This document shows positions 16,923-32,933 of a stretch of 64,000 bases of DNA, one piece after another (position 1 is the first letter of the stretch; each line of letters opens with the position of its first letter). Under the pieces are notes generated by a model, which worked only from the letters and a program-made list of their open reading frames with translations, made no database searches and was not told the DNA's origin. The position numbers were made by a program, and so were the translations under genes. This stretch comes from Microbacterium rhizosphaerae (GTDB taxonomy: Bacteria > Actinomycetota > Actinomycetes > Actinomycetales > Microbacteriaceae), in the NCBI RefSeq assembly GCF_034120055.1, contig NZ_CP139368.1, forward strand, positions 1,116,001 to 1,180,000, read 5' to 3'.

Positions 16923-16927
16923 CACGC

Positions 16928-16944
16928 AGGGGCGGCCTGCCCCT
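16928..16944 (+). terminator. Short hairpin after the ABC exporter operon
   Basis: AGGGGC and GCCCCT form a 6-bp perfect stem with a 5-nt loop 5 bp after the stop of the second ABC gene, followed by pyrimidine-rich CTTCC. It is a modest intrinsic terminator candidate immediately before palindromic repeat A. Confidence 0.4.
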
Positions 16945-16948
16945 CTTC

Positions 16949-17032
16949 CGCCGAGCCCACACCGGTTTGCCGAACCCCCACCGGATCTACGCATATTCGT
17001 TGAGGGTTCGACTAACCAGTGAGGGCTCGGCG
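16949..17032. repeat. Palindromic four-box repeat, copy A
   Basis: An 84-bp imperfect palindrome bounded by CGCCGAGCCC and GGGCTCGGCG. It contains four 10-bp boxes of the type CGAnCCCTCA: two forward at 16952 (CGAGCCCACA) and 16971 (CGAACCCCCA), and two inverted at 17001 (TGAGGGTTCG) and 17020 (TGAGGGCTCG). Box-start spacings are 19, 30 and 19 bp, identical to copies B and C. It lies upstream of the AbiEi-like gene. Confidence 0.75.
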
Positions 17033-17155
17033 CCCGTCCCGTCATGCAGGGTGGAGGTGCGACCGAGATTCCGCGGCGCGGATGGTCGATGTCGTGCCAT
17101 CCACCGACTGCGCGTGGGCGCGATCCGGGGGCGACGGGAGTGCGACCGTGGCGCA

Positions 17156-18238
17156 ATGGAGATCGATGATGCCCGCAATTCGCTGCTCAGCCGGGAAGAC
17201 CTCGAGCGCCGGGGCACGACAGTGCAGATGCTCCGCGCATCCCTTGCGAGGGGCGACCTGCACCGGGTGGATCACGGTCGATATGTCGAAATGACCCTGT
17301 GGCGCTCGAGATATGTCGAAGGTCGTCACCTTCTACGGGTCGTCGCCGCCGCCGAGCGACAACGGGGGACGAGCCTGGTCTTCTCACACGCGTCGGCCGC
17401 CGTCATGCACGGGCTTCCGCTCTTCCGGATGGAGCCGGCCCGGGTCCATCTGAGCGGGTCGGCGGCGAACGGACAGGTGCTCGCATGCAAGCCGACGGTC
17501 GCGCGCCACGAGGTTCCCGTCCCGGACGAGGACATCGTCGAGATCGGCGGCATCAGCTGCACCTCCCTTCCGCGCGCCGTCGCGGAGGTCGTACGGAGCG
17601 CTCCGCGAGAGACCGGGATCGCGGTCCTGGATGCGGCCCTCCGCAGAGGCGCATGGTGCGACCGAAGCCGCACCTACGACGTCGATCGTGCGGAGACCCT
17701 GCGCGCGCAGATCGGTCGATACCTGCCGAAGGGTGGACGAGGAGTGCGCCGTGGGCGGGAGATCTTGATGCTGGGAGACGGTCGGATCGAGTCGCCGGGC
17801 GAGTCCGTCAGCCATCTCTACCTGCGGGACATCGGGTTCCCGCCGCCTCTCCTGCAGGCACAGGTGCCAGGACCGGGCGGCACGACGTATTACGTCGACT
17901 TCGAGCTGGATGGTGCATTCGGCGAGTTCGATGGGATGGGAAAGTACATCGATCCGGTGTTGCGCGGCGGTCGTGGCATCGAGGAGGTGGTCGTCGCGGA
18001 GAAGAGGCGCGAGGACTGGATCAGGGGGATGACCGGTAAGCGCGTGGTCCGCTGGGGTACGGCGGACATCGCGGATGCCGCGACCTTCGAACAGCGCCTC
18101 GCCCGATTCGGCCTCACGCCGCGCGGCCGCGCGGGGGGAACCGGGTCAGCCCGACGCGCGACACACCCCTTTTCGCCGATCCCTCACTCGTTCATCGATC
18201 CCTCAGCCGATAGTGCGCAATCGGGTGAGGGATCGTGA
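17156..18238 (+). CDS. AbiEi-antitoxin-like N-terminal domain protein with endonuclease-like C-terminus
   Basis: A 360-residue protein of a type common in Microbacteriaceae and related actinobacteria. The N-terminus (SLLSREDLERRGTTVQML ... GDLHRVDHGRYV) resembles the winged-helix domain of type IV AbiEi antitoxins. The middle contains SHASAAVMHGLPLF and TSLPRAVAEV. The C-terminal part has TTYYVDFELDGAFGEFDGMG followed by KYID, similar to the DUF559/Vsr-type PD-(D/E)XK nuclease strand pattern. No cognate AbiEii toxin is adjacent, so a toxin-antitoxin role is not supported. Flanking palindromic repeats A and B bracket the gene. Repeat B encodes roughly the last 21 residues and the stop codon, so the C-terminus appears to have been altered by the repeat. 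Start ATG 17156 is the first consistent with the family N-terminus. Function unknown. Confidence 0.65.
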   Translation: MEIDDARNSLLSREDLERRGTTVQMLRASLARGDLHRVDHGRYVEMTLWRSRYVEGRHLLRVVAAAERQRGTSLVFSHASAAVMHGLPLFRMEPARVHLSGSAANGQVLACKPTVARHEVPVPDEDIVEIGGISCTSLPRAVAEVVRSAPRETGIAVLDAALRRGAWCDRSRTYDVDRAETLRAQIGRYLPKGGRGVRRGREILMLGDGRIESPGESVSHLYLRDIGFPPPLLQAQVPGPGGTTYYVDFELDGAFGEFDGMGKYIDPVLRGGRGIEEVVVAEKRREDWIRGMTGKRVVRWGTADIADAATFEQRLARFGLTPRGRAGGTGSARRATHPFSPIPHSFIDPSADSAQSGEGS

Positions 18239-18257
18239 GGCGATTGCGGGTTCGGCG
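18174..18257. repeat. Palindromic four-box repeat, copy B
   Basis: An 84-bp imperfect palindrome bounded by CGCCGATCCC and GGGTTCGGCG. Forward boxes CGATCCCTCA lie at 18177 and 18196, and inverted boxes at 18226 (TGAGGGATCG) and 18245 (TGCGGGTTCG). The 19-30-19 spacing equals that of copies A and C. The copy overlaps the 3' end of the AbiEi-like gene and supplies its stop. Confidence 0.75.
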
Positions 18258-18303
18258 AGCACGGCGCTCGGGCCCAGTCGGGCATCCGTGCGATCGACTG
18301 GTG

Positions 18304-18756
18304 CTAGAGGCCGACCTCGGCGATGATCTCGCCGTACTCGGTCTCGCCGACGGGCGTGAAGCCGACGCGCTCGAAGAACGCCGCCGGCCCGCCCTCGCCG
18401 GCCTCGTAGATCACGTTCACGTGGTCCATGCCGCGCTCGCGCGCCTCGGCCAGGAGCGACTCGACCGCGAAGCGGCCGATGCCCTTGCCCTGGTCCTCGG
18501 CGTCGACGTTGATGCGCCACAGCACGGAGCGGAAGTGCTCCTGCGGGAAGTCCGGATCGAAGTTCGCGCTGATGAAACCCACGATGTCGTCGCCGTCCAG
18601 GACGACCCGCTGCCAGGACGTCTGCGGATTCACGACGGTTGCAGCGATGCCGTAGCTCACCGGCGAGAGGAACTCCTCCTGCCCGGGCTTCAGCGACATG
18701 TTGTTGACCGCCACGATCGTCGAGGCGGACAGTTCTTCCAGCCGAAGTTCTGCCAT
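18304..18756 (-). CDS. GNAT-family N-acetyltransferase
   Basis: A 150-residue acetyltransferase. The acetyl-CoA binding motif A is visible as WRINVDAEDQGKGIGRFAVESLLAEA (Q/RxxGxG/A pattern in QGKGIG, about residues 90-95), followed by AAFFERVGFTPVGE typical of the motif B end. The N-terminus VNNMSLKPGQEEFLSPV is like spermidine/polyamine-type GNATs (the SpeG/PaiA/BltD-like group), which suggests an amine or amino-acid substrate, but this is weak. The start ATG 18756 was preferred to GTG two codons upstream. It is divergent from icd with 206 bp between, which contain the palindrome at 18819. Confidence 0.85.
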   Translation of the reverse strand: MAELRLEELSASTIVAVNNMSLKPGQEEFLSPVSYGIAATVVNPQTSWQRVVLDGDDIVGFISANFDPDFPQEHFRSVLWRINVDAEDQGKGIGRFAVESLLAEARERGMDHVNVIYEAGEGGPAAFFERVGFTPVGETEYGEIIAEVGL

Positions 18757-18818
18757 ACGCACAGGCTAATGCCCACATTGGTCCCAGAGGCAGGCTTGAT
18801 TCCGCATCCATAGGGAGA

Positions 18819-18836
18819 TATCTCGATGTCGAGATA
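18819..18836. promoter_or_regulatory. Perfect palindrome between the GNAT gene and icd (operator candidate)
   Basis: TATCTCGA-TG-TCGAGATA is a perfect 8-bp inverted repeat with a 2-bp centre, in an AT-richer island 126 bp upstream of the icd start and 62 bp upstream of the GNAT start. The size and form fit a dimeric repressor site such as MarR-type regulators use. No regulator gene is adjacent and the binder is unknown. Confidence 0.5.
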
Positions 18837-18962
18837 CTTTCGCGTGTGCGATAGTCTGGCGGATGCGTCGCTGCGCGCGGAGAACCGGCGTGCGGCGGCC
18901 GCATCCGACGCCCCTCACAGCCTCGCCCGCAAGGGCTCCTCCCTTCAAGAGAGAGACGATTC

Positions 18963-21179
<2,217 letters not shown>

Positions 21180-21209
21180 CTCGACACGATCCGGGACGAT
21201 CAGTGCGGA

Positions 21210-21239
21210 CGGGCCGGCGGGGGAGACCTCGCCGGCCCG
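21210..21239 (+). terminator. GC-rich terminator-like hairpin after icd
   Basis: CGGGCCGGCG and CGCCGGCCCG form a perfect 10-bp stem around a 10-nt loop, ending 22 bp before the start of the BadF-type kinase. No T-tract follows, as is common for actinobacterial terminators. Confidence 0.55.
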
Positions 21240-21261
21240 CGCCGCGTGAAGGAGGCGACGG

Positions 21262-22188
21262 GTGACCGACGGAGCGATGCTCGCGATCGACGCGGGCCAG
21301 ACCGGGATCAAGATCCGGATGACGGCCCCCGGCGCCGCACCTCGGGAGACGACTCTCGCGGGCGTGCGCACCCACGAGGAGCTCATCCCGCAGCTGGCAG
21401 CCGCAGCGCGTGCCGCGGCCGCCGGGAATCGGATCGCCGAGGTGTCGGCCGGTGTCTCGGGCCTCACGCGTCGCGAGTCGGACGCGACCGCTCTGCTGGA
21501 TGCGACGCGGGACCTCGGCACGAGGCTCGCCCGTCTCACGCACGACTCGGTGACCTCGTTCCTCGGCACCCTCGGCGGCGATCGCGGGGCGGTCGTCGCG
21601 GCGGGCACGGGAGTCGTGACCCTCGCCGTCGGCCGTTCTCGCGTCGCGCGCGTCGACGGCTGGGGCAACATCATGGGCGACGCGGGCAGCGCGTACTGGA
21701 TCGGCCGAGAGGCGCTGGATGCCGGCATGCGCGCCTATGACGGGCGCGGTCCGCGCACGCCGCTGACCGATGTCATGCGCGAGCGGTGGCCCGACCTCGA
21801 CGAGGCGTACATCGACCTGCAGGGCGATCCCGACCGCATCAGGATCGTCGCATCCTTCGCCCCCGCGGTCGCCGACCTCGCGGATGCGGACCCGGTCGCC
21901 GAGGGCATCTGCCGTCGTGCGGCCGGGGAGCTCGCGCGATCGGTCACGGCGGCGCTCGAGCGGGTCGCGGAGGAGGCTGACGCGGACGCATCCTGGGCCG
22001 TCGGCGCCGTCGGCGGCGTGTTCGCATCGGGGCTCATCCGCTCGCGCTTCGCGCAGCTCCTGGCCGACGGCTCGGTGGCGGTGCACCTCGTCAGCGCACG
22101 GGGCACCGGCCTCGACGGCGCCGCCGCACTGCCGGGCGTCGGGCCGGAGCATCCGCTCAGCGCGTTCGTCTCCGTCGCGTCGCGCTGA
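21262..22188 (+). CDS. BadF/BadG-type ATPase, probable N-acetylglucosamine kinase
   Basis: A 308-residue ASKHA-fold protein. ATP-binding elements are MLAIDAGQTGIKIRM (phosphate 1), VVAAGTGVVTLAV (phosphate 2) and, near the C-terminus, VGGVFASG. The stretch RVDGWGNIMGDAGSAYWIG is characteristic of the GlcNAc-kinase branch of the BadF family (GWGxxxGDxGSxYWIG). The likely reaction is ATP-dependent phosphorylation of GlcNAc or a related amino sugar, which would link it to the chitin-saccharide genes starting 1.7 kb downstream; substrate assignment is by family. The start is GTG 21262 with AAGGAGG 8 bp upstream. It is convergent with the L,D-transpeptidase gene. Confidence 0.8.
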   Translation: MTDGAMLAIDAGQTGIKIRMTAPGAAPRETTLAGVRTHEELIPQLAAAARAAAAGNRIAEVSAGVSGLTRRESDATALLDATRDLGTRLARLTHDSVTSFLGTLGGDRGAVVAAGTGVVTLAVGRSRVARVDGWGNIMGDAGSAYWIGREALDAGMRAYDGRGPRTPLTDVMRERWPDLDEAYIDLQGDPDRIRIVASFAPAVADLADADPVAEGICRRAAGELARSVTAALERVAEEADADASWAVGAVGGVFASGLIRSRFAQLLADGSVAVHLVSARGTGLDGAAALPGVGPEHPLSAFVSVASR

Positions 22189-22220
22189 CCCGGCTGACGT
22201 CGCGCACGCTCACGCGTGGG

Positions 22221-23663
22221 TCAGTTGTGCACCCACACGTCGGTGCCGGTGGGGGTCCAGTCGTAGAGCTGCTTGGCGCGGGGGATCGGCATCCCGACGC
22301 AGCCGTGGCTCATCGTGTGGCCCCAGTTGTGGTGCCAGTACACGCCGTGGAAGCCCTGGTCGCCGTTGAAGTACATGACCCACGGGACGTCCGGCTGCGC
22401 GTACGTCGTGCCGTCGGGGTTGTTGCCCCGCATCGTCATCGACGTGATGTGCGAGTTGATCCGGAAGTGACCGGTCTTCGTGGGGTACGTGCGTCCGCTC
22501 GAGATGAGCCACGAGTCCACGACCTGCCCGTTCTCCTTGAGGTACAGCGTCTGCGTTGTCAGGTTGACCTCGAGCAGGCGCTGCGCCGTCGCCATCTTCG
22601 CGGGGACCTCGGAGACGGTGAGCTTGTACACCCCGTCGAGGTTGGCCAGCTGCTTCGCGAAGGCCTCGGCGACGCCCGTGGTCTCGCCGAGAGTGCGTCC
22701 GCTGTGCCCGGCGGCGATGGTGCGCAGCACCGTGCCGGACGAGTTCGTGATGACGGAGCCGTCGGCGGGCGCACGGTTCACGGACGCCGCAAGCGTATCG
22801 ACGACCCTCTGGATCTTGGATGCGTCGGCCCTCACGCCGATGGTGCCGTCCGGCTTGTCCGCCACGGTGATCCACGATGCGGCGGTCGCGCGGTCGACGG
22901 GTACCGTCCGCTCGTCGCCCACGTAGAACCCGACGGTGTCGAGCATCTTGTTGAGCTTGCCGGCGACCTCCTGCGCGTGCGCGGTCGTCGTGGCCGCGGC
23001 CACCGGGGTCGTCGACACCGTCACGGCCGCACTCGCCGAGCCGGCGGCGAAGGCGTTCTGGATGGCGGTCTGCACGGCATCCACGTTCACGCTGGTGCCG
23101 TCGACCGCCGGCGTGACGGTGTACGAGCCCGTGGCGCCGTCGAAGGAGACGGTCGCGTCGACGGGGGCGACGTAGAGCGAGGGGAAGACCGTGTGGAGCT
23201 TCGATGCGACCGTGGCGTGGTCGACCTTCACGTCGGCCTTGCGCGACGAGGGGAACCACGCGGCCACGTTCCACAGGGGGTGGTCGGCGTACGTGTCCTG
23301 CGCGAGCGTGGCCGCATCGACGCTCGCCCCGAGGTCCGCGCCGGTCATGGTGACCGTTCGGCCGTCGGGCCCGGACAGGGTCACCGGCGTCGAGGCGAGC
23401 CTCGCGGTGATGGCGTCGGCGGCGGCGCCCGCGGTCATCCCTCCGACGGGCACGCTCGCGACGGAGGCGCCGGGGGCGATGAGGACGAGGGAGATCGCGA
23501 CGACGGCCGCTGCGACGATGCCTGTGGGTACGCCGATCCACGCGCCGAGGTGACGCTTGCGGTGGGCCGGTTCCGCCGGTGCCCACGCGTATGTCGCGCC
23601 GGTGCCGGTGCTGTGATCAGCCCCGGTCTTCCCGGCATCCCCCTGCTCGCCCGTGTCTGCCAC
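22221..23663 (-). CDS. Membrane-anchored L,D-transpeptidase (YkuD domain)
   Basis: A 480-residue cell-wall enzyme. A short cytoplasmic N-terminus is followed by one transmembrane helix near residues 45-65 (GIVAAAVVAISLVLIAP). Then come two repeated extracellular PG-binding-4-like segments (PVGGMTAGAAADAI ... GATGSYTVTPAVDG) and the C-terminal YkuD catalytic domain with FHGVYWHHNWGHTMSHGCVG, containing the catalytic His and Cys (HG...SHGC). Such enzymes form 3-3 peptidoglycan cross-links or attach proteins to the wall. The start was set at GTG 23663, because the GGGGG upstream is at good distance; TTG two codons earlier abuts it. Confidence 0.9.
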   Translation of the reverse strand: MADTGEQGDAGKTGADHSTGTGATYAWAPAEPAHRKRHLGAWIGVPTGIVAAAVVAISLVLIAPGASVASVPVGGMTAGAAADAITARLASTPVTLSGPDGRTVTMTGADLGASVDAATLAQDTYADHPLWNVAAWFPSSRKADVKVDHATVASKLHTVFPSLYVAPVDATVSFDGATGSYTVTPAVDGTSVNVDAVQTAIQNAFAAGSASAAVTVSTTPVAAATTTAHAQEVAGKLNKMLDTVGFYVGDERTVPVDRATAASWITVADKPDGTIGVRADASKIQRVVDTLAASVNRAPADGSVITNSSGTVLRTIAAGHSGRTLGETTGVAEAFAKQLANLDGVYKLTVSEVPAKMATAQRLLEVNLTTQTLYLKENGQVVDSWLISSGRTYPTKTGHFRINSHITSMTMRGNNPDGTTYAQPDVPWVMYFNGDQGFHGVYWHHNWGHTMSHGCVGMPIPRAKQLYDWTPTGTDVWVHN

Positions 23664-23824
23664 AGTCAACCCCCGAATTGCCCGAGCATTATTGTACCGG
23701 GGACGGCCTGAGCGCCGGATCGGAGACGGTGACGGTTGGGTCTCGATGGCCGACGCCGCGCGCCGGCAGCGAATATAACGAATTCGTAAAGAGGCCGCGC
23801 AAACCTGGTCGAGGGCTTGCGGAA

Positions 23825-23853
23825 TGTTTGTTCGTAAGGTCTACTAACAAACA
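23825..23853. promoter_or_regulatory. ROK repressor operator candidate overlapping its own start codon
   Basis: An inverted repeat with 12-bp arms and one mismatch: TGTTTGTTCGTA and TACTAACAAACA around 5 bp. It ends on the A of the ROK regulator's ATG, the position expected for autorepression. A close match to the left half (TGTTTGCTCGTA) lies at 36605, and the CTAACAAA core recurs at 36731 and 45293, all at amino-sugar genes. Confidence 0.6.
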
Positions 23854-25046
23854 TGACTGCACCGGAAGCGCAGCGCGGCTCTTCCACGATCGAGCCCGCG
23901 CCCACGACCCACGGCGACGAGAATCCCTATGGTCCCCGCCGTGCACTGCGTCAGGGAGCCAAGGTGCTTCCCGAGCACGCCCGCGGGCACAACCGGGCGC
24001 TCCTCCTGCAGACGCTCTTCCACGAGGGGGCGATGAGCCGCGCCGACCTGTCGCGCGAGACCGGCCTCACGCGCGTGACGATCTCCGACCTCGTCGCCGA
24101 GCTCATCGCCGACGGCTTCATCGTCGAGGTGGGCGTGCGCGAGGCCTCCGGCCCGGGCAAGCCCGCGATCCTCATCGACCTCGACCGCACGGGGCACCGC
24201 ATCCTCGCCCTCGACCTCTCCGCGAGCGACCGCTTCGTCGGCGCGGTGCTCACCCTCGACGGGCGGATCGTCAGCCGTCGCGTGGTCGACCACGTCGAGC
24301 ATCTCGACGACGCGGCCGGCATCATCATCGGGCTCGCCCGTGAGCTCGCCGCAGAATCCGACATGCCGATCCTCGGCATGGGCGTCGGCACCCCCGGTGT
24401 GGTCGACGACGCGGGCGTGGTCCTCACCGCGCCCAACTTCGGCTGGCGCGACTACGACCTCAAGTCGGCGCTGCGCGCGGCCGTCGACGTCCCCGTGATC
24501 GTCGCCAACGACGCGAACGCGGCCGTGCTCGCGGAGTACACGTTCGGCGGTGCCGACGACGTCCTGCTCGTGAAGATCGGCCGCGGCGTCGGCTCGGGGC
24601 TCGTCATCGACGGGCGGCCGGTGCGCGGCAGCCACTCGGCGGCGGGCGAGATCGGCCACGTCACGGTCGGCACCGACGGTGGCCCGCTGTGCGCATGCGG
24701 CCGCTCCGGCTGCCTCGAGGCGTGGCTCTCGGCTCCGGCGCTCACGGCTCGCACCGCGGATGCCGACCCCGCCGACCGCGACGGCATCCTGTACGACGCC
24801 GGGGAGCGTCTCGGCATCGCGCTCGCACCCGTCGTGGGTGCGCTCGACCTGTCGGAGGTCGTCCTCTCCGGCCCCCCTGAACTTCTCGACGGACCGCTCG
24901 CCCGGGCGACCCTCGAGACCCTCCGCTCCCGGATCCTCACCGTCCTGCACGACGGCATCCGGGTGCGGATGACGGAGCAAGGCCAGGACATCGTCCTGCG
25001 CGGCGCGGCCGTCATGGTCCTGTCCGGACAGCTGGGCGTGTCCTAG
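23853..25046 (+). CDS. ROK-family transcriptional repressor
   Basis: A 397-residue NagC/XylR-type regulator. An N-terminal winged helix-turn-helix (GHNRALLLQTLFHEGAMSRADLSRETGLTRVTISDLV, residues ~45-85) is followed by a ROK sugar-kinase-like domain with GMGVGTPGVVDD, IGRGVGSGLVIDG and the zinc-binding CACGRSGCLEAW. The first ATP-binding strand has lost the DIGGT motif (LALDLSASDRFVGAVL), as usual for regulators. Its effector is probably a GlcNAc-derived sugar, given the downstream DasABC-like transporter, ROK kinase and nagB, all on the same strand. The 12-bp-arm palindrome over the start codon suggests autoregulation. Effector identity is inference. Confidence 0.9.
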   Translation: MTAPEAQRGSSTIEPAPTTHGDENPYGPRRALRQGAKVLPEHARGHNRALLLQTLFHEGAMSRADLSRETGLTRVTISDLVAELIADGFIVEVGVREASGPGKPAILIDLDRTGHRILALDLSASDRFVGAVLTLDGRIVSRRVVDHVEHLDDAAGIIIGLARELAAESDMPILGMGVGTPGVVDDAGVVLTAPNFGWRDYDLKSALRAAVDVPVIVANDANAAVLAEYTFGGADDVLLVKIGRGVGSGLVIDGRPVRGSHSAAGEIGHVTVGTDGGPLCACGRSGCLEAWLSAPALTARTADADPADRDGILYDAGERLGIALAPVVGALDLSEVVLSGPPELLDGPLARATLETLRSRILTVLHDGIRVRMTEQGQDIVLRGAAVMVLSGQLGVS

Positions 25047-25120
25047 GACCTGACATCCCCCAGACGGAGCCGCAAGGCCCGTCGCACACCAAGAGAAATC
25101 ACCAAACACGAGGAGACAAA

Positions 25121-26428
25121 TTGCGCACTTCACGCATCGTCGCCGTCGGCGCTGTCGGCGTCGCTGCCGCCCTGGCGCTGAGCGCCTGCGGCAGCAGCTC
25201 CGGATCTGGGTCAACCAGCGGCGCGGTCGACGGCAAGGGCAAGACGCTCACCGTCTGGGCCATGACCGGCGACCTCTCGGACACGACGCTCAAGGCGATC
25301 AACGACGAGTTCACCAAGCAGACCGGTGCCAAGGTCAAGATCGAGACCCAGCAGTGGACCGACATCGCGACCAAGATCACCACGGCGCTCGCCACGAGCA
25401 CCCCGCCGGACGTGCTCGACCTCGGCAACACCCAGGTCGCCACCTTCGCCTCGAGCGGCGGCCTCGCCGACCTGTCGAAGTACAAGAGCGAGTTCCAGCA
25501 GGGCCAGACGTGGCTCGGCGGTCTGCAGGATCCGGCCACCGTCGACGGCAAGCTGTACGCCGTCCCGTCGTTCGCCGGCGCCCGTGCGGTCCTCTACAAC
25601 AAGACCATCTGGGCGGATGCGGGCATCACCGCCGCCCCCACCACGTACGACGAGCTCAAGGCCGACCTCGACAAGCTCAAGGCCAAGAACGCCGGCACCG
25701 ACTTCTCCGCCTTCTACCTCCCGGGTCAGTACTGGTACGCCGGCATGCAGTGGGTGTGGGACCAGGGCGGCGACATCGCCACGCAGAAGAGCGGCAAGTG
25801 GACGGCCGGCTTCTCGACGCCTGAGGCGCAGAAGGGCCTCGGCGACTGGAAGGCCTTCCAGAACGCGTACTCGTCGGCCGCCAGCCAGACGCTCAACACC
25901 GACAAGCCCGACCAGGACCAGGTGTTCGCCGACGGCAAGGCCGGCGCGATCATCGCCAACGGCTGGGAGATCGGCGTGGTCCAGAAGGACAACCCGAAGA
26001 TGACGAACGACGTCCTCGGCTCGTTCCCGATGCCGGGCGTCTCGGGCAAGAACCAGCCGGTGAACCTCGGAGGCTCGGACTGGGGCATCGCGACCAAGAG
26101 CAAGAACCAGGAGCTGGCCCGTGCATGGGTCAAGATCGCTGCCAGCCCCGACATCCAGAACACCTACGTCTTCGGCAAGGACGGCTGGATCCCGAACAGC
26201 GTCGAGGGCTCGAAGGCCGCGGTCGACGGCGGCACCCTGTCGGACCTGCAGAAGGCGTTCTTCACGTCGGCACAGAACTCGAAGGCCACGCCGGCCTCGG
26301 GCAGCTGGGCGTCGCTGGAGGACCCCGGCATGAAGCAGTTCTTCCAGTCGGTGACCTCGGGCAGCCAGTCGACGTCCGACGCGGCGAAGACGTGGGACGC
26401 CACGGTCAACTCGACCCTCAACCAGTGA
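25121..26428 (+). CDS. Chitobiose/GlcNAc-oligomer ABC transporter, lipoprotein substrate-binding protein (DasA-like)
   Basis: A 435-residue extracellular solute-binding protein (family 1). TTG 25121 is preceded by GAGGAGACAAA. The signal peptide ends in lipobox LSAC (Cys ~24), then a Ser/Gly linker. The mature start KTLTVWAMTGDLSDTTLKAI, together with QQWTDIATKITTALATSTPP and LGNTQVATFASSGGLADL, closely resembles DasA, the N,N'-diacetylchitobiose-binding protein of Streptomyces. This supports an amino-sugar oligomer ligand, but specificity is not proven from sequence. It is first of the transporter genes, followed after 26 bp by the permeases. No ATPase gene is present, so a shared MsiK-type ATPase elsewhere is expected. 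Confidence 0.85.
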   Translation: MRTSRIVAVGAVGVAAALALSACGSSSGSGSTSGAVDGKGKTLTVWAMTGDLSDTTLKAINDEFTKQTGAKVKIETQQWTDIATKITTALATSTPPDVLDLGNTQVATFASSGGLADLSKYKSEFQQGQTWLGGLQDPATVDGKLYAVPSFAGARAVLYNKTIWADAGITAAPTTYDELKADLDKLKAKNAGTDFSAFYLPGQYWYAGMQWVWDQGGDIATQKSGKWTAGFSTPEAQKGLGDWKAFQNAYSSAASQTLNTDKPDQDQVFADGKAGAIIANGWEIGVVQKDNPKMTNDVLGSFPMPGVSGKNQPVNLGGSDWGIATKSKNQELARAWVKIAASPDIQNTYVFGKDGWIPNSVEGSKAAVDGGTLSDLQKAFFTSAQNSKATPASGSWASLEDPGMKQFFQSVTSGSQSTSDAAKTWDATVNSTLNQ

Positions 26429-26454
26429 TCGACCGATAGCAGGACACGGAGAAG

Positions 26455-27438
26455 ATGACCATCGCCTCGACCGCGACAAGCGTCGCAGGCGAGGGTGTGG
26501 CCGCCGCCCGACCCGGGCGGCGGCCACGGCACCCTCGCCGCTACACCGCGCAGGCGCGCTACGCGCCGCTCTGGCTGCTCTCGCCGGCCGGAATCGTGAT
26601 CGCCGCGCTGATCCTGGCGCCGATCGTCTTTCTCGTCTTCACGTCCTTCACGGACTTCAACCAGCGGACCCTCTTCACGGGGGAGTTCAGCTTCGTCGGG
26701 CTCGACCAGTACACGAAGACCCTTGCGAGCCCGCAGTTCTGGTGGTCGACGCTGCTGACGATCGGCTTCACGGCCGCACTCGTCGTCGGCAGCCTCATCA
26801 TCGGAGTCGGCGTCGCCGAGCTCATGATGCGACTGGGCACCGTGATGCGTTATGTCGTCACGATCGTGCTGATCTTCGCCTGGGGCATGCCGAACGTGGC
26901 GTCGTCGCAAGTGTGGAACTGGCTGTTCCAGCCGGGCTACGGCGTCATCAACTGGATGCTGACCCAGCTGCGCATCTTCGGCGACGTGACCAACCTGTCG
27001 TGGGCCAACAACACCTTCCTCGCTCTGCTGTGCATCTGGATGCTCGTCGTGTGGCAAGCGGTGCCGTTCATCGCGCTGACCACCTACGCGGCGCAGACGC
27101 AGATCGACACGTCGATGCTCGAGGCCGCCCGCATCGACGGCGCTAGCGAGCCCCGCATCTACTTCACGCTCGTCCTCAGCTACCTGAAGCCGACGATCCT
27201 GCTCGTCACGGTGCTCTCGATCATCTGGGACTTCAACGTCTTCAACCAGATCTGGCTCGTCACCCAGGGCGGGCCCAACAACACGACGGCGACGCTCGGC
27301 ATCTGGACCTACCTGACCGCCTTCAACACCTTCAAGATCGGAACGGGCGCCGCGATCTCCGTGATCACCACGATCATGCTCATGATCATCAGCGGCTTCT
27401 ACATCCGCAGCCTGCTTCGCTCGGGGGAGGACTTGTGA
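26455..27438 (+). CDS. Sugar ABC transporter permease (MalF/DasB type)
   Basis: A 327-residue inner-membrane permease with about six transmembrane helices. The ATPase-contacting EAA loop reads LEAARIDGASEPRIYFTLVL (residues ~222-241). A ~35-residue basic N-terminal extension precedes the first helix (LLSPAGIVIAALILAPIVFL). ATG 26455 has GGAGAAG upstream. Its stop overlaps the next permease start (TGTGAG), so the two membrane subunits are coupled, consistent with a heterodimeric channel fed by the DasA-like lipoprotein. Confidence 0.93.
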   Translation: MTIASTATSVAGEGVAAARPGRRPRHPRRYTAQARYAPLWLLSPAGIVIAALILAPIVFLVFTSFTDFNQRTLFTGEFSFVGLDQYTKTLASPQFWWSTLLTIGFTAALVVGSLIIGVGVAELMMRLGTVMRYVVTIVLIFAWGMPNVASSQVWNWLFQPGYGVINWMLTQLRIFGDVTNLSWANNTFLALLCIWMLVVWQAVPFIALTTYAAQTQIDTSMLEAARIDGASEPRIYFTLVLSYLKPTILLVTVLSIIWDFNVFNQIWLVTQGGPNNTTATLGIWTYLTAFNTFKIGTGAAISVITTIMLMIISGFYIRSLLRSGEDL

Positions 27439-28343
27439 GCACCATCACCACCGCGTCGTCGACGTCCACGGCCGCGGCGACGCGCACGGGAGCGCGGCCC
27501 ACGCGGCCCCGGCGGCGGCGCCGCCAGCGTCACGGCTGGGCGACCGCCATCGCGATCGTCTTCAGCGTCGTCTGGATCTTCCCCGTGTACTGGATGGTCA
27601 ACACGGCGTTCAAACCGCGGCCCGAGGTCATGACCTCGACACCCCACTTCCTGCCGCTGAACCCGACGCTCGAGAACTTCATCGTCGCGATCACGCAGAC
27701 GTCGTTCCTGACGAACCTCCAGAACAGCATCATCGTCGTCGTGAGCGCCGTGGTCTTCGCGCTCGCGCTCTCGCTGTTCGCCGCGGCGGCACTCAGCCGG
27801 TTCCGCTTCCGCGGGCGCCGCACGATCATGGTGCTGATCCTCGCGGTCCAGATGCTGCCCGGCACGGCGCTGCTCATCCCGCAGTTCCTGATGTTCAACA
27901 ACCTGGGTCTGCTGAACTCGTTCTTCGGCCTCTCGCTCGCGTACGTCGCGGCTGTGCTGCCGTTCGCGATCTGGACCCTGCGGGGGTTCTTCATCACGAT
28001 CCCGGTCGAGCTCGAAGAGGCCGCGATGATGGACGGTGCGGGCACATGGCGCATCCTGCGCAGCATCCTGTTCCCGCTCGTCGTCCCGGGTGTGATCTCG
28101 ACGAGCATCTTCGCCTTCATCTCCGCCTGGAACGAGTACATCCTCGCCTACACCTTCATGAAGGAGCAGGCGATGTACACCCTGCCGATCTGGCTGGTGT
28201 CGTTCTCCTCGCCCGTCACGGGCACGGACTATGGCGGGCAGATGGCGGCCTCGGTGCTGTTCGCGCTCCCCGTCGTCGTCTTCTTCCTCATCATCCAGCG
28301 CCACCTCGTGGTCGGGATGTCGGCCGGGGCGGTCAAGGGCTGA
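27435..28343 (+). CDS. Sugar ABC transporter permease (MalG/DasC type)
   Basis: A 302-residue second permease subunit with six predicted helices. The EAA motif is LEEAAMMDGAGTWRILRSIL (about residues 194-213), and the FISAWNEYILAYTFM segment is typical of the MalG group. The start is GTG 27435, overlapping the stop of the upstream permease by 4 bp. It pairs with that subunit to form the transmembrane pore. The next gene, a ROK sugar kinase, starts 44 bp downstream on the same strand, so uptake and phosphorylation are encoded together. Confidence 0.93.
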   Translation: MSTITTASSTSTAAATRTGARPTRPRRRRRQRHGWATAIAIVFSVVWIFPVYWMVNTAFKPRPEVMTSTPHFLPLNPTLENFIVAITQTSFLTNLQNSIIVVVSAVVFALALSLFAAAALSRFRFRGRRTIMVLILAVQMLPGTALLIPQFLMFNNLGLLNSFFGLSLAYVAAVLPFAIWTLRGFFITIPVELEEAAMMDGAGTWRILRSILFPLVVPGVISTSIFAFISAWNEYILAYTFMKEQAMYTLPIWLVSFSSPVTGTDYGGQMAASVLFALPVVVFFLIIQRHLVVGMSAGAVKG

Positions 28344-28386
28344 TGCGGGCGCAGGCTGCAGCCGCCTCCCGTCGGGAGAGCGGCTC

Positions 28387-29313
28387 ATGAGAGCGGGCTT
28401 GGACATCGGCGGGACCAAGACGGACGCCGTCGCGATCGACGGGGCGGGGACGGTGCGGGCTCGGGTGCGGCTCGCGACGGGATGGGGATCGGATGCGGTC
28501 GTCCGCACCGTGGTCGACGCCGTCTCGGCGCTCGCTGCCGAGCTCGGGCTGCCCGTCGCCGCCTTCGCCTCGGTGGGCATCGGCATCCCGGGACGCATCG
28601 AGCCGGGCTCCACGCGCGTGCGGCACGCCGTGAACCTCGGCATTGACGAGCTCGACCTCGCCGCCGCCGTCGGTCCCGAGCTCGGGCTGCCCGTGGCCGT
28701 GCAGAACGACGTGAAAGCGGCCGCTCTCGGCGCCGCGGCGCTCGTCGGCGCGACGGGAACCCTCGCCTACCTCAACGTCGGCACCGGCGTCGCTGCGGGC
28801 ATCGTCGTGGACGGGCGGCTGTGGGCCGGAGCATCCGGCACGGCCGGTGAGGTCGGCCACCTGTCGATCGATGCGGACGGGCCACTGTGCACGTGCGGCC
28901 AGCACGGCTGCGTCGAGGCGTTCTCGGGCGGCGGCGCGGTCGCGCGCCGCTGGGATCGCCCGGGCGAGCTGCCGATCCGCGACGTCTTCGACGCCGCCGA
29001 TGCAGGTGACGCGTTCGCGATCGAGCTGCGCGACGGCATCGGCTATGGCGTGAGCGCCGCGATCCGCGCCCTGGTGCTGACGGTGGATGCCGGTACCGTC
29101 GTCCTCGGGGGTGGCATAACGATGCTGGGCGATCGGCTGATGGCCGTCGTGGGTGCTGAGCTCGAGCGCAGCGCCGACGCATCCCCGTTCATCCGCTCGC
29201 TCCGCCTCGACCAGCGCGTGCGCGTGCTTCCGGCGGGCTCGCCGGTCGCCGCGATCGGTGCGGCGCTCGTCGGCGCCGACCGCGATACCGAGGAGGTCCT
29301 TGCCCATGGCTGA
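28387..29313 (+). CDS. ROK-family sugar kinase (probable GlcNAc/glucosamine kinase)
   Basis: A 308-residue kinase. ATP-binding LDIGGTKTDAVAI lies at the N-terminus. Further motifs are GIGIPGRIE, NLNVGTGVAAGIV-like (YLNVGTGVAAGIVVDG), the sugar-binding AGEVGHLSID and the zinc motif CTCGQHGCVEAF. The intact DIGGT and zinc ligands mean this is a catalytic enzyme, unlike the upstream ROK repressor. Position between a DasABC-like importer and nagB suggests it phosphorylates GlcNAc or glucosamine released in the cytoplasm. The start ATG 28387 has GGGAGAGCGGC upstream. The stop overlaps nagB by 8 bp. Confidence 0.87.
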   Translation: MRAGLDIGGTKTDAVAIDGAGTVRARVRLATGWGSDAVVRTVVDAVSALAAELGLPVAAFASVGIGIPGRIEPGSTRVRHAVNLGIDELDLAAAVGPELGLPVAVQNDVKAAALGAAALVGATGTLAYLNVGTGVAAGIVVDGRLWAGASGTAGEVGHLSIDADGPLCTCGQHGCVEAFSGGGAVARRWDRPGELPIRDVFDAADAGDAFAIELRDGIGYGVSAAIRALVLTVDAGTVVLGGGITMLGDRLMAVVGAELERSADASPFIRSLRLDQRVRVLPAGSPVAAIGAALVGADRDTEEVLAHG

Positions 29314-30085
29314 AGTGGTCATCGTCGAGAACGCCGCTGCGGCGGGGGCTCTCGTCGCCGACGAGATCGTGCGGCTGATCCGCGCAGACCCGTCCGTCGT
29401 GCTGGGACTCGCGACCGGCTCGACGCCGCTGCCCGTCTACGAGGCGCTGCGCTCGCGCGTCGCCGACGTTGACGTGTCGCAGGTGCGCGGCTTCGCCCTC
29501 GACGAGTACGTCGGCATCGATCCGGCGCATCCCGAGAGCTACCGCTCCGTCATCACTCGCGAGGTCGTCGAGCCGCTGGGACTCGACCCGGCGCGCATCC
29601 GCGTGCCCGACGGGCGCACAGACGGCATCGAGCACGCCGGCGCCGACTACGAGGCCGCGATCGATGCGGCCGGGGGAGTGGCCCTCCAGCTGCTCGGCAT
29701 CGGCACCGACGGGCACATCGGCTTCAACGAGCCGGGGTCGTCGTTCGCGTCGATCACCCGTGTGAAGACCCTGACCGAGCAGACGCGCGAGGACAACGCG
29801 CGCTTCTTCCCGAGCATCGACGACGTGCCGATGCACTGCATCACGCAGGGGCTCGGAACGATCCTTCGCGCGAAGCACCTCGTGCTCCTCGCCTTCGGCG
29901 ACGGCAAGGCGGAGGCCGTGGCCGGCGCTGTCGAGGGTCCGGTGACGGCGTCGCTGCCCGGCTCCGCGATCCAGCTGCATCCGCACGCGACCGTGGTCGT
30001 CGACGAGGCCGCGGCATCGCACCTGCGCTTCGCGGACTACTACCGCTACACGTACGCGAACAAGCCCGCCTGGCAGGGCCTGTAG
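29306..30085 (+). CDS. nagB: Glucosamine-6-phosphate deaminase
   Basis: A 259-residue NagB converting glucosamine-6-phosphate to fructose-6-phosphate and ammonia. Signatures are VLGLATGSTPLPVYEAL (phosphate loop), VRGFALDEYVGIDPAHPESY with the catalytic Asp, and LLGIGTDGHIGFNEPGSSF with the catalytic His region. ATG 29306 lies within the 3' end of the ROK kinase and has GAGGAGGTCC upstream. It completes the operon ROK repressor - DasABC-like - kinase - nagB. nagA, needed to make the substrate from GlcNAc-6-P, is 13 kb away next to the hexosaminidase. Confidence 0.95.
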   Translation: MAEVVIVENAAAAGALVADEIVRLIRADPSVVLGLATGSTPLPVYEALRSRVADVDVSQVRGFALDEYVGIDPAHPESYRSVITREVVEPLGLDPARIRVPDGRTDGIEHAGADYEAAIDAAGGVALQLLGIGTDGHIGFNEPGSSFASITRVKTLTEQTREDNARFFPSIDDVPMHCITQGLGTILRAKHLVLLAFGDGKAEAVAGAVEGPVTASLPGSAIQLHPHATVVVDEAAASHLRFADYYRYTYANKPAWQGL

Positions 30086-30115
30086 ATCCGTCGCGCGCGC
30101 CATTACTCTGACGAC

Positions 30116-30217
30116 ATGACGAATGGCTCTGCGCAGGTGCTCACGGAGACCGGGCGCGACGCCCGCCTGACGTGGGCGATCGGCGGCGGACTGCTCGTCG
30201 CGTACGCCGTTCGATGA
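30116..30217 (+). pseudogene. 33-codon ORF, possible remnant of a truncated gene
   Basis: ATG 30116 to TGA 30217 encodes 33 residues beginning MTNGSAQVLTETGRD and ending with the mildly hydrophobic WAIGGGLLVAYAVR. TACTCT, a good -10 match, lies about 7 bp before the ATG, as in leaderless actinobacterial genes. The reading frame stops soon after and no continuation is found in other frames. A 6-bp hairpin (30151-30165) inside it fits a terminator for nagB equally well. I do not recognise the peptide. It may be the N-terminal stub of a deleted membrane protein gene, or chance. Confidence 0.25.
30151..30165. terminator. Small hairpin between convergent nagB and Nudix genes
   Basis: CGGGCG-CGA-CGCCCG is a perfect 6-bp stem with a triloop, 66 bp after the nagB stop and 78 bp before the Nudix stop on the other strand. 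It could end transcription in either direction. It is the only terminator-like structure I see in this gap. Confidence 0.35.
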
Positions 30218-30242
30218 CTTCACGAGCTAGCTGTACCGCGTC

Positions 30243-30656
30243 TCAGCGCCAGGCGAGGGGCAGCAGCTGATTGCGGCTGAGCGGGGCGAGGGGAGTCGCA
30301 TCCACGTCGCCCTCGCCGATCCAGCGCAGCTCGTCGATCTCCGCACCGGCGAGCGCCTCGGGTCCGGGCAGCGTCAGCGCGAACGCGTCCGCGACGACGG
30401 TGTGACCGGGCTCGTCGGCCGCGGCATCCCGGAACATCCCGAGCGGCGTGAACGAGGCGGGATCCGCGACGATCCCCGTCTCTTCGAGCAGTTCACGGAC
30501 GGCGGCCTCGAGCGCCCCCTCCCCGGGATCGGGCTTGCCGCCGGGCTGCTGGAAGACGGCCGTGCCGTGCTTGCGGACGACGAGCGCGCGCCCGGACGGA
30601 TCCGTGACCACGACGGCGCTGACCCGGATCACGCGCTCCGCGGGCGCTGCGCTCAC
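30243..30656 (-). CDS. Nudix hydrolase
   Basis: A 137-residue hydrolase with an intact Nudix box GGKPDPGEGALEAAVREL followed by LEETGI (Gx5Ex7REUxEExGU). Such enzymes cleave nucleoside diphosphates linked to another moiety, often for housecleaning (MutT-like). The substrate is not predictable. The start GTG 30656 overlaps the stop of the upstream FAD-linked oxidase (GTGA), so the two are translationally coupled. The open frame extends further upstream, but only inside the oxidase gene. The N-terminus RVIRVSAVVVTDPSGRALVV is a standard first strand. Confidence 0.87.
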   Translation of the reverse strand: MSAAPAERVIRVSAVVVTDPSGRALVVRKHGTAVFQQPGGKPDPGEGALEAAVRELLEETGIVADPASFTPLGMFRDAAADEPGHTVVADAFALTLPGPEALAGAEIDELRWIGEGDVDATPLAPLSRNQLLPLAWR

Positions 30657-32023
30657 GGGAAGACCTTGCCGGGATTGAGGATGCCCTGGGGGTCGAACAG
30701 GCGCTTGATGTCGCGCTGCAGGCGCCACTGATCGTCGCCGAGCTCGTCCGCGAGCCATCGCTTCTTCAGCACGCCGATGCCGTGCTCTCCGGTGAGCGTT
30801 CCGCCGAGGCGCAGAGCGGCGCGGAAGAGGTCGTCCGCGGCCGCCCAGATCTGATCGGGCACGTCGGTTTCACCGTCGGGGATGATGAAGTTGGGATGCA
30901 GGTTGCCGTCGCCGGCGTGCGCGACCGTGGGGATCGCGATCCCGTACTCGCGCTCGACCCGCGCGATCTCATCGAACATCGCCGGCAGGGCGCTGCGGGG
31001 CACGCTGACGTCCTCGATGAGGGTGCGGCCGAGCGACTCCATGGCGGGATGCATCGACCGGCGGATCGCGAGCAGCCGCTCGCCCTCGGCGGGATCCTGC
31101 GAGACCGCCACCTGACCGCCGGCGTCGCGCAGGACCGCCGCGATCTCGTCCGCTTCGGTCGCCGCGGCCGGGCCGTCCGTCTGGACCGTCAGCTGCGCGG
31201 CCCCGACGGGCGGGGCTGCGAGCCCCAGCAGGGCGTGCACAGCCGCGAGGGACTGCGTATCCATCAGTTCCATGATCGCGGGCTGGATGCCGGCCGCCGT
31301 CACGGCTGCCGAGGCCTGCGCGGCCGAGCGCACGCCGCGGGGGAAGGTCGCCGCGATCGTCCGCGGCGCGCCCGGGACGAGCCGCGTGAGCTTGAGTGTC
31401 GCGCCGACGACGATGCCGAGGATGCCCTCGGACCCGATGAACAGCGACGTGAGATCGAGCCCCGTGACGCCCTTGACCGAGCGATGGCCGACGTGGATCA
31501 GCCTGCCGTCGGCGAGCACGACGTCGAGTGCGAGGACGGCGTCGCGCACGACCCCGTACTTCGCGCACAGAAGCCCCCCGGCGCCCGTGGCGATGTTGCC
31601 GCCGACCGTCGAGATCGCGCGGCTCGCGGGGTCCGGCGCCCACCACAGTCCGTGCGGCGCGAGCGCCTCGTTGAGGTCGCCGTTGAGGATGCCCGGCTCG
31701 ACCACGGCGAGCAGATCGTCGGGGCGGACCTCGAGGATGCGCGTCATCGACCGCAGCGACAGCGCGATCTCGCCGCGCCCCGCGTTCGCTCCTCCCGCGA
31801 GTCCGGTCCCGGCGCCGCGCGGGACGACCGGTGTTCCCGTCGCCGTCGCGATGCGACACACCGCCTGCACGTCGGCGACGGAGGCCGCGTGGACGACGGC
31901 GACGGGCGGGGCGGATGCCGCGTGCCCGGACTTGTCGGCGCGGGCCCCGTCGAGGGCGCCCGGGGTCGTGTCGACGCGCTCGCCGAGCGCGTCGCGGAGC
32001 TGGTCGAGGACGTCGGAGGTCAC
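30653..32023 (-). CDS. FAD-linked oxidase, glycolate/D-lactate dehydrogenase (GlcD) type
   Basis: A 456-residue flavoenzyme of the vanillyl-alcohol-oxidase/GlcD family. The FAD-binding PCMH domain contains VVPRGAGTGLAGGANA and ISTVGGNIATGAGGLLCAKYG. The C-terminal FAD-oxidase cap has PTVAHAGDGNLHPNFI and GTLTGEHGIGVLKKRWL with the conserved His residues. It most likely oxidises D-lactate, glycolate or another 2-hydroxy acid to the 2-keto acid; the exact substrate is not resolved. The start is GTG 32023, preceded by a short gap in which repeat C lies. It is followed by the overlapping Nudix gene. No GlcE/GlcF partners are present. Confidence 0.88.
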   Translation of the reverse strand: MTSDVLDQLRDALGERVDTTPGALDGARADKSGHAASAPPVAVVHAASVADVQAVCRIATATGTPVVPRGAGTGLAGGANAGRGEIALSLRSMTRILEVRPDDLLAVVEPGILNGDLNEALAPHGLWWAPDPASRAISTVGGNIATGAGGLLCAKYGVVRDAVLALDVVLADGRLIHVGHRSVKGVTGLDLTSLFIGSEGILGIVVGATLKLTRLVPGAPRTIAATFPRGVRSAAQASAAVTAAGIQPAIMELMDTQSLAAVHALLGLAAPPVGAAQLTVQTDGPAAATEADEIAAVLRDAGGQVAVSQDPAEGERLLAIRRSMHPAMESLGRTLIEDVSVPRSALPAMFDEIARVEREYGIAIPTVAHAGDGNLHPNFIIPDGETDVPDQIWAAADDLFRAALRLGGTLTGEHGIGVLKKRWLADELGDDQWRLQRDIKRLFDPQGILNPGKVFP

Positions 32024-32048
32024 ACTCTCAGCCTAGAGATGCGTTTCG

Positions 32049-32128
32049 GCGAGCCCTCGCTCCATGACCGAACCCACACTCAGATCACGCGAATCGGCTG
32101 TGGGCTCGGGAAATGGATGAGGGCTCGC
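32049..32128. repeat. Palindromic four-box repeat, copy C
   Basis: An 80-bp imperfect palindrome from GCGAGCCCTC to GAGGGCTCGC. Boxes lie at 32050 (CGAGCCCTCG), 32069 (CGAACCCACA), 32099 (TGTGGGCTCG) and 32118 (TGAGGGCTCG), with the same 19-30-19 spacing as copies A and B. It fills the gap between the DeoR stop and the FAD-oxidase start, both on the minus strand. Confidence 0.75.
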
Positions 32129-32144
32129 GAGAGGTGCGCACGGG

Positions 32145-32933
32145 TCACTCCGCGACCCGGACGTCGTAGCCGCGCTCGACGAGCTCCGCGCGCTGTTCCG
32201 GGGTGATGCCGGCATCGGTGAGGACGATCGGGAACCGCTCCGGGCCGCCCATCACGGCGAACGCGGTGCGGCCGATCTTGCTCGAATCGGCGACGATGAC
32301 CGCCTGCCGGGCGCGCGCGGCCATCAGCCTATTGGCCGCGGCCTCGCGCTCGTCGTGCGTGGTGGCGCCGACCTCCGCGTCGATGCCGTTGACGCCGATG
32401 AACGCCACGTCGATCGTGAGGCCGCGCAGCACCTGCTCCGCGTATCCGCCGACGAGCTCGTAGGAGCGGGCGTTGAGCACGCCGCCCGTGACCACGATCT
32501 TGAGGGAGGGACGGGTCGCCAGCTGCGCGGCGATGTTGACCGAGTTCGTGACGACCGTGAACGCGTGGAGCGCGGCGGCGGGCGCAGCATCCGTCCGCAT
32601 CGCGAGGGCCGCCGCGATCGCGGTCGTCGTCGTGCCACCGGTGAGTCCGACGACCGACCCGGTCGGGATCATCTGCGCGGCCATGCGGGCGATCCGCTGC
32701 TTCTCCGCGGTGCGCTGGTGGTTCTTGTACCGCAGGGGCAGCTCGTAGGCGACGCTCAGCGGCGCAGCACCGCCGCGGGTGCGGGTGAGCAGCCGCTGCT
32801 CGGCGAGGGCGTCCAGGTCTCGACGCGCGGTCGCGGCCGAGACGCCCAGGGTGTCGACGAGCTCGTCGACCTCGACGCCGTCCGAGGCGGCCAGCAGCTC
32901 GATGATCGCCGCGAGTCGCTCGGCACGCTTCAT
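32145..32933 (-). CDS. DeoR/GlpR-family transcriptional repressor
   Basis: A 262-residue regulator. The N-terminal DeoR helix-turn-helix is ERLAAIIELLAASDG...VDELVDTLGVSAATARRDLDAL (residues ~5-50). The C-terminal sugar-phosphate-sensing DeoRC domain includes VGLTGGTTTTAIAAAL, VVTNSVNIAAQL, VVTGGVLNARSYELVG and VADSSKIGRTAFAV. It is the last gene of a five-gene minus-strand operon (SIS isomerase, ROK kinase, PfkB kinase, aldolase, DeoR). Its start ATG overlaps the aldolase stop (ATGA). It likely represses this operon and the divergent ABC transporter through the palindrome at 36667, responding to a phosphorylated intermediate. The inducer is inferred. Confidence 0.9.
   Translation of the reverse strand: MKRAERLAAIIELLAASDGVEVDELVDTLGVSAATARRDLDALAEQRLLTRTRGGAAPLSVAYELPLRYKNHQRTAEKQRIARMAAQMIPTGSVVGLTGGTTTTAIAAALAMRTDAAPAAALHAFTVVTNSVNIAAQLATRPSLKIVVTGGVLNARSYELVGGYAEQVLRGLTIDVAFIGVNGIDAEVGATTHDEREAAANRLMAARARQAVIVADSSKIGRTAFAVMGGPERFPIVLTDAGITPEQRAELVERGYDVRVAE

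Follow-up and report, generated by a model that had tools for sequence, protein, structure and literature searches.

Four-box palindromes in Microbacterium rhizosphaerae as probable recognition sites of an AbiEi-nuclease fusion protein encoded between two of them

What holds four short DNA boxes at fixed distances while the sequence between them drifts? This question is raised by a 64,000-nucleotide stretch of the Microbacterium rhizosphaerae chromosome (positions 1116001-1180000 of NZ_CP139368.1, a single 4.06-Mb contig; here called the window), from which a sequence-only reading had reported three palindromes of four boxes each. All three were found, at 16952-17029 (element 1), 18177-18254 (element 2), and 32050-32127 (element 3), none being assigned to a strand. 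Each is built from one forward and one inverted pair of ten-base boxes, with starts at 0, 19, 49, and 68 bp, so the constant 19-30-19 spacing claimed earlier was borne out in every copy. Element 1, with boxes starting at 16952 and 16971 (forward) and at 17001 and 17020 (inverted), begins 29 bp past the stop codon of an ABC-transporter gene; element 2 ends 49 bp short of the stop of a convergent GNAT gene; and element 3 is a dispersed copy with an FAD-oxidase gene to one side and, to the other, a DeoR-family regulator gene whose 3′ end faces it. Elements 1 and 2 are two whole, separate elements whose spacers differ. A search of the window for the two-box half-pattern with at most three mismatches gave 6 matches, compared to 0.20 expected and a maximum of 2 among 100 shuffles, while single boxes with at most one mismatch were not enriched (27 found, 29.2 expected). 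Thus, the signal is the arrangement of the boxes.

The sequence-only reading overlooked the gene between elements 1 and 2. This plus-strand gene, at 17156..18235, encodes 360 amino acids, with a stop codon at 18236-18238 and a start codon picked by eye. Element 1 lies upstream of it, spanning −204 to −127 relative to the start codon adopted here, and element 2 overlaps its 3′ end, the last residues being read through the element. In the predicted structure, residues ~7 to 208 form an AbiEi antitoxin module and residues ~211 to 324 a Vsr/homing-endonuclease-like nuclease domain; the other Foldseek rows were weak, and families outside that listing could still fit. The first module has the two-domain fold of AbiEi antitoxins, and PADLOC also returned AbiEi hits. 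We aligned the window protein with 56 homologs chosen by hand from 80 named loci. At an E value of ≤0.01, Pfam AbiEi families were present among these 57 members and the Y1/HUH family in none of them. The second module combines a nuclease fold with the conserved acidic residues of EDxHD/Vsr-like homing endonucleases: E216, D248, E257, and D259 are invariant in the 57 members, a putative catalytic set assigned by conservation rather than by residue-by-residue mapping. The C-terminal tail of the window protein is mostly missing from the 11 relatives aligned. One relative is labeled in the database as a "type IV toxin-antitoxin system AbiEi family antitoxin domain-containing protein" and another as a "hypothetical protein." No AbiEii-like partner gene was seen beside the window gene (neighbors GNAT and, by eye, an ABC transporter) or among 10 neighbors of six homologs. 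We consider it probable that the palindromes are recognition sites of the protein encoded between elements 1 and 2, and that the two together form a selfish or domesticated system like REPIN-RAYT (repetitive extragenic palindromes and their associated transposases) with an unrelated enzyme.

Further copies were found elsewhere in the genome, with the spacing conserved. The M. rhizosphaerae chromosome (G000; genomes are cited by G numbers and gene loci by L numbers) holds 13 complete four-box elements, with none for the control. The half-pattern matched 27 times, compared to 0 for the reversed pattern, and 23 of these matches are halves of the 13 elements, the other 4 being isolated. Across the genus, the full pattern matched in 11 of 149 genomes, this one included, with 0 control matches in each; copies numbered 13 each in G000, G011, and G138, 11 in G079, 9 in G130, and 1 to 3 in six others. 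Region L082 of G130 is identical to L118, which comes from a record named M. ureisolvens, in agreement with the genus being Microbacterium. Gene context was read with a simple codon-usage gene caller, which missed the family gene itself. Ten of the 13 elements follow a stop codon by ≤50 bp, 1 has a gene start on either side, and 2 lie inside predicted open reading frames. The earlier description of the palindromes as intergenic or at a gene end holds for the three window copies. Six of the 10 elements past stop codons stand between convergent genes, element 2 being counted among them against GNAT by use of the family gene. Separately, no four-box element occurs between ~1.15 and 2.64 Mb of the chromosome, which has the look of terminus avoidance and may be due to chance.

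Comparison of flanking sequences strongly supports the view that many family genes are flanked on both sides by elements with a private box sequence, and that lineages differ in their box but keep one geometry. Elements of the full-pattern class adjoin the homologs in G138, G079, and G130. A box-free scan of 24 loci for four similar 10-mers at 19-30-19 detected very different element sequences beside homologs in G002, G005, G006, G011, G016, and G070, where shuffled maxima were 31 to 39; several other homologs had no match. When a 19 × 31 grid of geometries was run on the 80 named loci (the best 80 of 184), the best combination was 19/30, with 48 of 160 sides scoring ≥46, followed by 19/28 (44) and 19/32 (43), which we take to be the same palindrome caught in shifted frames; the grid median was 0. 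Maxima far from the genes were mostly 29 to 40, and only two reached 46 (47 and 57). We then scored the flanks of 86 genes at a lax cut of 40, requiring at least two of the four boxes to begin with CGA: 43 genes had an element on both sides and 16 on one side, and scored upstream elements started ~170 to 390 bp ahead of the gene. A pattern-free test on the 68 named loci with enough flank gave upstream-downstream similarity above the 95th percentile of the far control in 58 of 68 genes, compared to 11 of 67 cross-locus pairs. It took the place of a 9-mer flank-sharing test, which we dropped on account of its null of 0.56 and its far control of 41/70, despite 64/70 for own flanks.

Across species, the box reads CGAR plus a variable 6-mer at the same 19-30-19 geometry. 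Of 312 boxes, 96, 93, and 96% have C, G, and A at positions 1, 2, and 3, respectively, a share that is partly imposed, because the register rule demands at least two of four boxes starting with CGA. At the six variable positions, the upstream and downstream consensus of the 39 genes with both flanks scoring ≥45 differed by a mean of 0.26 mismatches (32 of 39 identical), compared to 3.30 after shuffling; the lowest of 10,000 shuffles gave 2.36. We next related box distance to protein distance by Mantel tests on 49 of the 86 genes, covering 24 box cores (L137, L119, and loci with a best flank <47 excluded). The correlation was 0.61 for the AbiEi C-domain, 0.48 for the winged helix-turn-helix (wHTH), and 0.36 for the nuclease; given the nuclease, partial correlations were 0.53 for the C-domain and 0.37 for the wHTH. 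Residues near 101 to 120 headed the per-site list. Pairs at an orthologous gene locus gave a similar picture for residues 1 to 70, 71 to 190, and 191 to the end: the same-box pairs L162/L171 and L139/L180 are 90/91/98% and 67/80/87% alike, and the box-switch pairs L162/L180 and L162/L139 are 46/56/78% and 44/56/77% alike. Surrounding DNA is ~93% identical for L162/L171 and ~86% for L162/L180, L149 standing in for L139 in the DNA comparison. In L133/L178 and L135/L177 (surrounding DNA, 87 to 94%), the N-terminal part differs most, the boxes there being only partly scored. These comparisons strongly support a box type that follows the AbiEi module more than the nuclease.

Dispersed copies were counted per type as pattern matches, so that the pair beside the gene and some overlapping frames enter the counts. 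CGANYGCACG had 4 to 24 matches in 9 of the 9 genomes given with such a gene (9 of 13 TGCACG-type loci) and 0 in 23 of 25 others, the exceptions being G161 (7 matches) and G164 (5); in G161, the TGCACG box stands on both sides of a second gene (L147/L296). For CGANGACGCA, matches in 6 genomes were confined to G167 (4) and G168 (3). CGANATGACC matched 2 to 4 times in five genomes of that type, once in G168, and not at all in G167 and G000. The counts strongly support the proposal that dispersed copies are often of the same box type as a flanked gene in the genome, with exceptions. Taken together with the match between boxes and gene, they lead us to infer strongly that the protein recognizes the elements.

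Sites that differ among species bear on mobility. At the ABC-GNAT site, gene order is preserved in relatives, but a full-length family gene is missing from it; both flanks were located in 19 of 20 fetched regions. G032 has only 4 bp there, G011 and G003 have short, weak family-like fragments, G018 has a solo four-box element of another type (CGAACTCCGC) with no matching gene among its two hits, and others have hairpins or other insertions. The site at 3276696 of the M. rhizosphaerae genome measures 99 bp, compared to 16 bp in G138 and 8 bp in G149; its orthologue in G002 carries a solo element of that genome's own gene type and that in G034 another type. Two orthologous solo sites, with flanks 86 to 95% alike, carry GACGCA in G168 and ATGACC in G197, and GACGCA in G167 and ATGACC in G165, respectively; one solo element is common to G168 and G167. 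The second of these sites was read at 29 loci for 30 genomes, and about half of these loci were not judgeable because the left flank was not found. There, remnants of ATGACC type (by eye) adjoin an intact GACGCA element in G167, G162 has its own CGAGACCCCC type, G156 and G157 lack an element, and G016 shows a 19-bp tandem expansion. In our reading, elements insert into and replace one another at favored intergenic sites, where earlier types persist as fossils, and we infer mobility from presence, absence, and turnover. As side observations, L246 and L243 (G201 and G200) carry another palindrome (GTGTCCAAGACAC-type, two per site) at the same orthologous intergenic site, and 19-bp box units have expanded to tandem arrays of 4 to 6 copies beside or within elements at L241 (G016) and L106. 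The homologs at L139 and L127 are followed closely by ribosomal-protein genes (L10 and the S13 region, respectively), as if a few conserved intergenic sites were preferred.

The sequence-only reading had offered a foldable shape, a protein contact under selection, or a REP-like element. The first of these is not supported: when the analysis was limited to box types with ≥3 copies (116 of the 143 distinct elements), spacers pair at 4.29 of 9 positions within an element, compared to 4.17 ± 0.13 between elements of the same type. Thus, with no sign of selected pairing in the spacers, the conserved thing is probably a protein-bound duplex, with boxes read by a protein, and not a folded hairpin. 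The element center is mildly self-complementary (5.07 versus 4.46 ± 0.15 of 10). A hairpin or RNA element was rejected on the background level of spacer complementarity and on the lack of any Rfam match, at gathering scores, in window positions 16500 to 32500 or in 8 homolog loci. The other two suggestions gain support, since the boxes match those around the gene, whose product is predicted to be a DNA-binding nuclease, and vary in step with its AbiEi module.

How such a system would work can be sketched by analogy with AbiEi and Rv2827c. According to the available text of PMC7319586, inverted repeats of 23 bp are bound in separate events, two of them by AbiEi and four by Rv2827c. One AbiEi-like module may likewise bind each 19-bp unit, placing four protomers on an element as two inverted pairs, with residues ~101 to 120 and the wHTH possibly reading the variable bases. 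Nuclease domains would thereby be positioned at the palindrome. More tentatively, the Vsr-like domain might nick or cut the bound palindrome, and repair might copy elements into intergenic sites, mostly directly past stop codons. A change in the specificity of the AbiEi module would then let elements of the new type spread while old ones decay.

Several observations weigh against recognition and spread of this kind. No scored element flanked 27 of the 86 genes, even at the lax cut; several of these low scorers have matching flanks by eye, with changed spacing or partial loss. A search for target-site duplications in 141 elements with flanks gave no convincing excess among the offsets covered, the highest z being 3.1 (a 3-mer). 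At the second solo site, the element types in G166, G198, and G197 (only the right flank in G197) differ from that of the gene in the respective genome. G164 holds its 5 TGCACG elements without a gene so flanked (5 homologs found, flanks of 4 read), G011 has 13 CCCACA (CGAACCCACA) elements and none of its 3 homologs flanked by that box, and G006 holds one element of the full-pattern class though its scored gene is of ATGACC type. Genomes with few full-pattern copies were not all traced to a gene, and G050, G140, and G102 may lack a matching one. Copy numbers are low (2 to 24), and some copies are simply common to close species (L214/L219). Moreover, the link of nuclease to box persists given the wHTH, with a small partial correlation of 0.13 (P = 0.013), and pairwise Mantel tests only partly remove shared ancestry.

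Among the alternatives, the one that survives best, though we regard it as unlikely, is an AbiEi-derived autorepressor with a regulon, in which the upstream element is the operator, the dispersed copies are operators or roadblocks, and sites coevolve with the protein because they are functional. AbiEi and Rv2827c autorepress via two and four inverted repeats (available text of PMC7319586), the distance of the upstream elements from the gene would suit an operator, and two orthologous solo sites carry each species' own gene type (L214/L223 and L217/L234). However, most copies in the M. rhizosphaerae genome lie past stop codons, and for six of these the neighboring genes converge, a place where a promoter is not expected; the downstream element matches the upstream one; the acidic residues of the nuclease are invariant; and a site is empty in other species.

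Still less probable are structural sites kept by the host, such as bidirectional terminators or supercoiling or repair sites, that the nuclease services. The preference for positions past stop codons and between convergent genes is consistent with this idea, as is the strong predicted folding of a single strand of the three window copies. On the other hand, none of the 13 elements had a T run on the needed side within 12 bp, a comparison made without a dedicated terminator scan; spacers pair at background; some relatives show an ordinary hairpin and no element at the same site (by eye); and distribution is patchy, with 11 of 149 genomes having this box class. Two further proposals are very improbable, to the same degree. 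A classical homing endonuclease would make solo elements its targets and the gene between two elements an occupied site, but the flanks are whole separate elements with differing spacers and not target halves, and the window protein has one match in its genome compared to 13 elements, which disfavors frequent homing. A defense or self-marking nuclease, attacking foreign DNA while chromosomal palindromes restrain it or mark self, would fit the membership of AbiEi in an abortive-infection system and the PADLOC hits, but no AbiEii-like partner was present among the neighbors scanned.

Recognition of the palindromes by the AbiEi-nuclease protein thus remains our preferred explanation, and it can be set against known systems. 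REPIN-RAYT comprises a gene beside its own palindrome class, dispersed extragenic copies, and coevolution of enzyme and repeat (available text of PMC3116915 and PMC8266576). As in REPIN-RAYT or REPtron systems, cognate palindromes here flank the gene and are dispersed, with G011 and G164 as exceptions. Unlike in those systems, the enzyme is an AbiEi module with a Vsr-like nuclease instead of an HUH tyrosine transposase (TnpA-REP), and the repeats have four boxes, fixed spacing, drifting spacers, and 2 to 24 copies and, with spacers pairing at background, are probably not folded single-stranded DNA hairpins. Profiled by position, 143 elements and 141 flank pairs show CGA boxes and GC-rich flanks and no GTAG/CGTC tag. 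The proposed system works like REPIN-RAYT but lacks its defining enzyme, a Y1 HUH transposase. It shares with the type IV antitoxins AbiEi and Rv2827c the two-domain DNA-binding fold of proteins that bind multiple inverted repeats, and differs in its nuclease fusion, its lack of an AbiEii toxin in the scanned loci, and its sites on both gene sides and dispersed. In contrast to Vsr and the EDxHD homing endonuclease I-Bth0305I, no intron or known target gene was seen, and DNA reading is probably done by the AbiEi module. Like miniature inverted-repeat transposable elements and other short nonautonomous insertion elements, the palindromes are short, mostly intergenic, and patchy, but neither a target-site duplication nor a parental transposase of known class was seen. 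We found no description of such a system in the open-access literature, including the available text of PMC12306157 (RepRanger); subscription papers and preprints lie mostly beyond that reach.

Related genes suggest a wider family. A distant AbiEi-nuclease paralog (~26 to 34% identity) in G165, G167, G016, and G027 is flanked by other palindromes, and its loci L278, L276, L282, and L274 stand at the orthologous site of 3276696. Beside the gene in G167 and G016, the palindrome has GTGAGGGGTCANNNNNTGTCGC arms 37 to 38 bp apart (GTGAGGGGTCA-N5-TGTCGC arms); the G165 gene is flanked by a different form. Half-sites of the GTGAGGGGTCANNNNNTGTCGC form numbered 68 in G009, 59 in G167, 44 in G165, 12 to 21 in G016, G168, and G166, and 1 to 2 in G070 and G020, with 0 in 12 of 20 genomes. 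Two AbiEi-family genes on Tsukamurella tyrosinosolvens plasmids (L313 and L314; 27 to 31% identity at an E limit of 1e-10), which belong to another order, are bracketed by repeats that match by eye, suggesting that the pattern is wider than Microbacterium. Carriage by phages or plasmids was rejected: no match to the family gene turned up in 50,697 phage records or in a viral-contig scan, and the plasmid matches were the two Tsukamurella records. The evidence seems to us evenly balanced on a broader proposal, namely a new class of selfish repeats in Actinomycetota in which AbiEi-derived readers fused to Vsr-like nucleases are each flanked by, and spread, their own palindrome, with several subfamilies (78-bp four-box and 59-bp two-arm), specificity rewritten via the reading module, turnover at the same intergenic sites, and convergence with REPIN-RAYT from an antitoxin. 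If this is true, these little-studied genes would supply the enzymes for repeats of an origin separate from that of RAYTs, and the persistence of single-copy nucleases with palindromes would become testable in a second, unrelated system. The flanks of each gene hold its candidate recognition sequence, with two dozen natural variants here, and the DNA code of AbiEi modules may therefore be readable by comparison. As a minor observation, the first ~100 bases of L147, at the end of contig NZ_FUKO01000002.1, contain homopolymer runs and a stretch that resembles a sequencing adapter.

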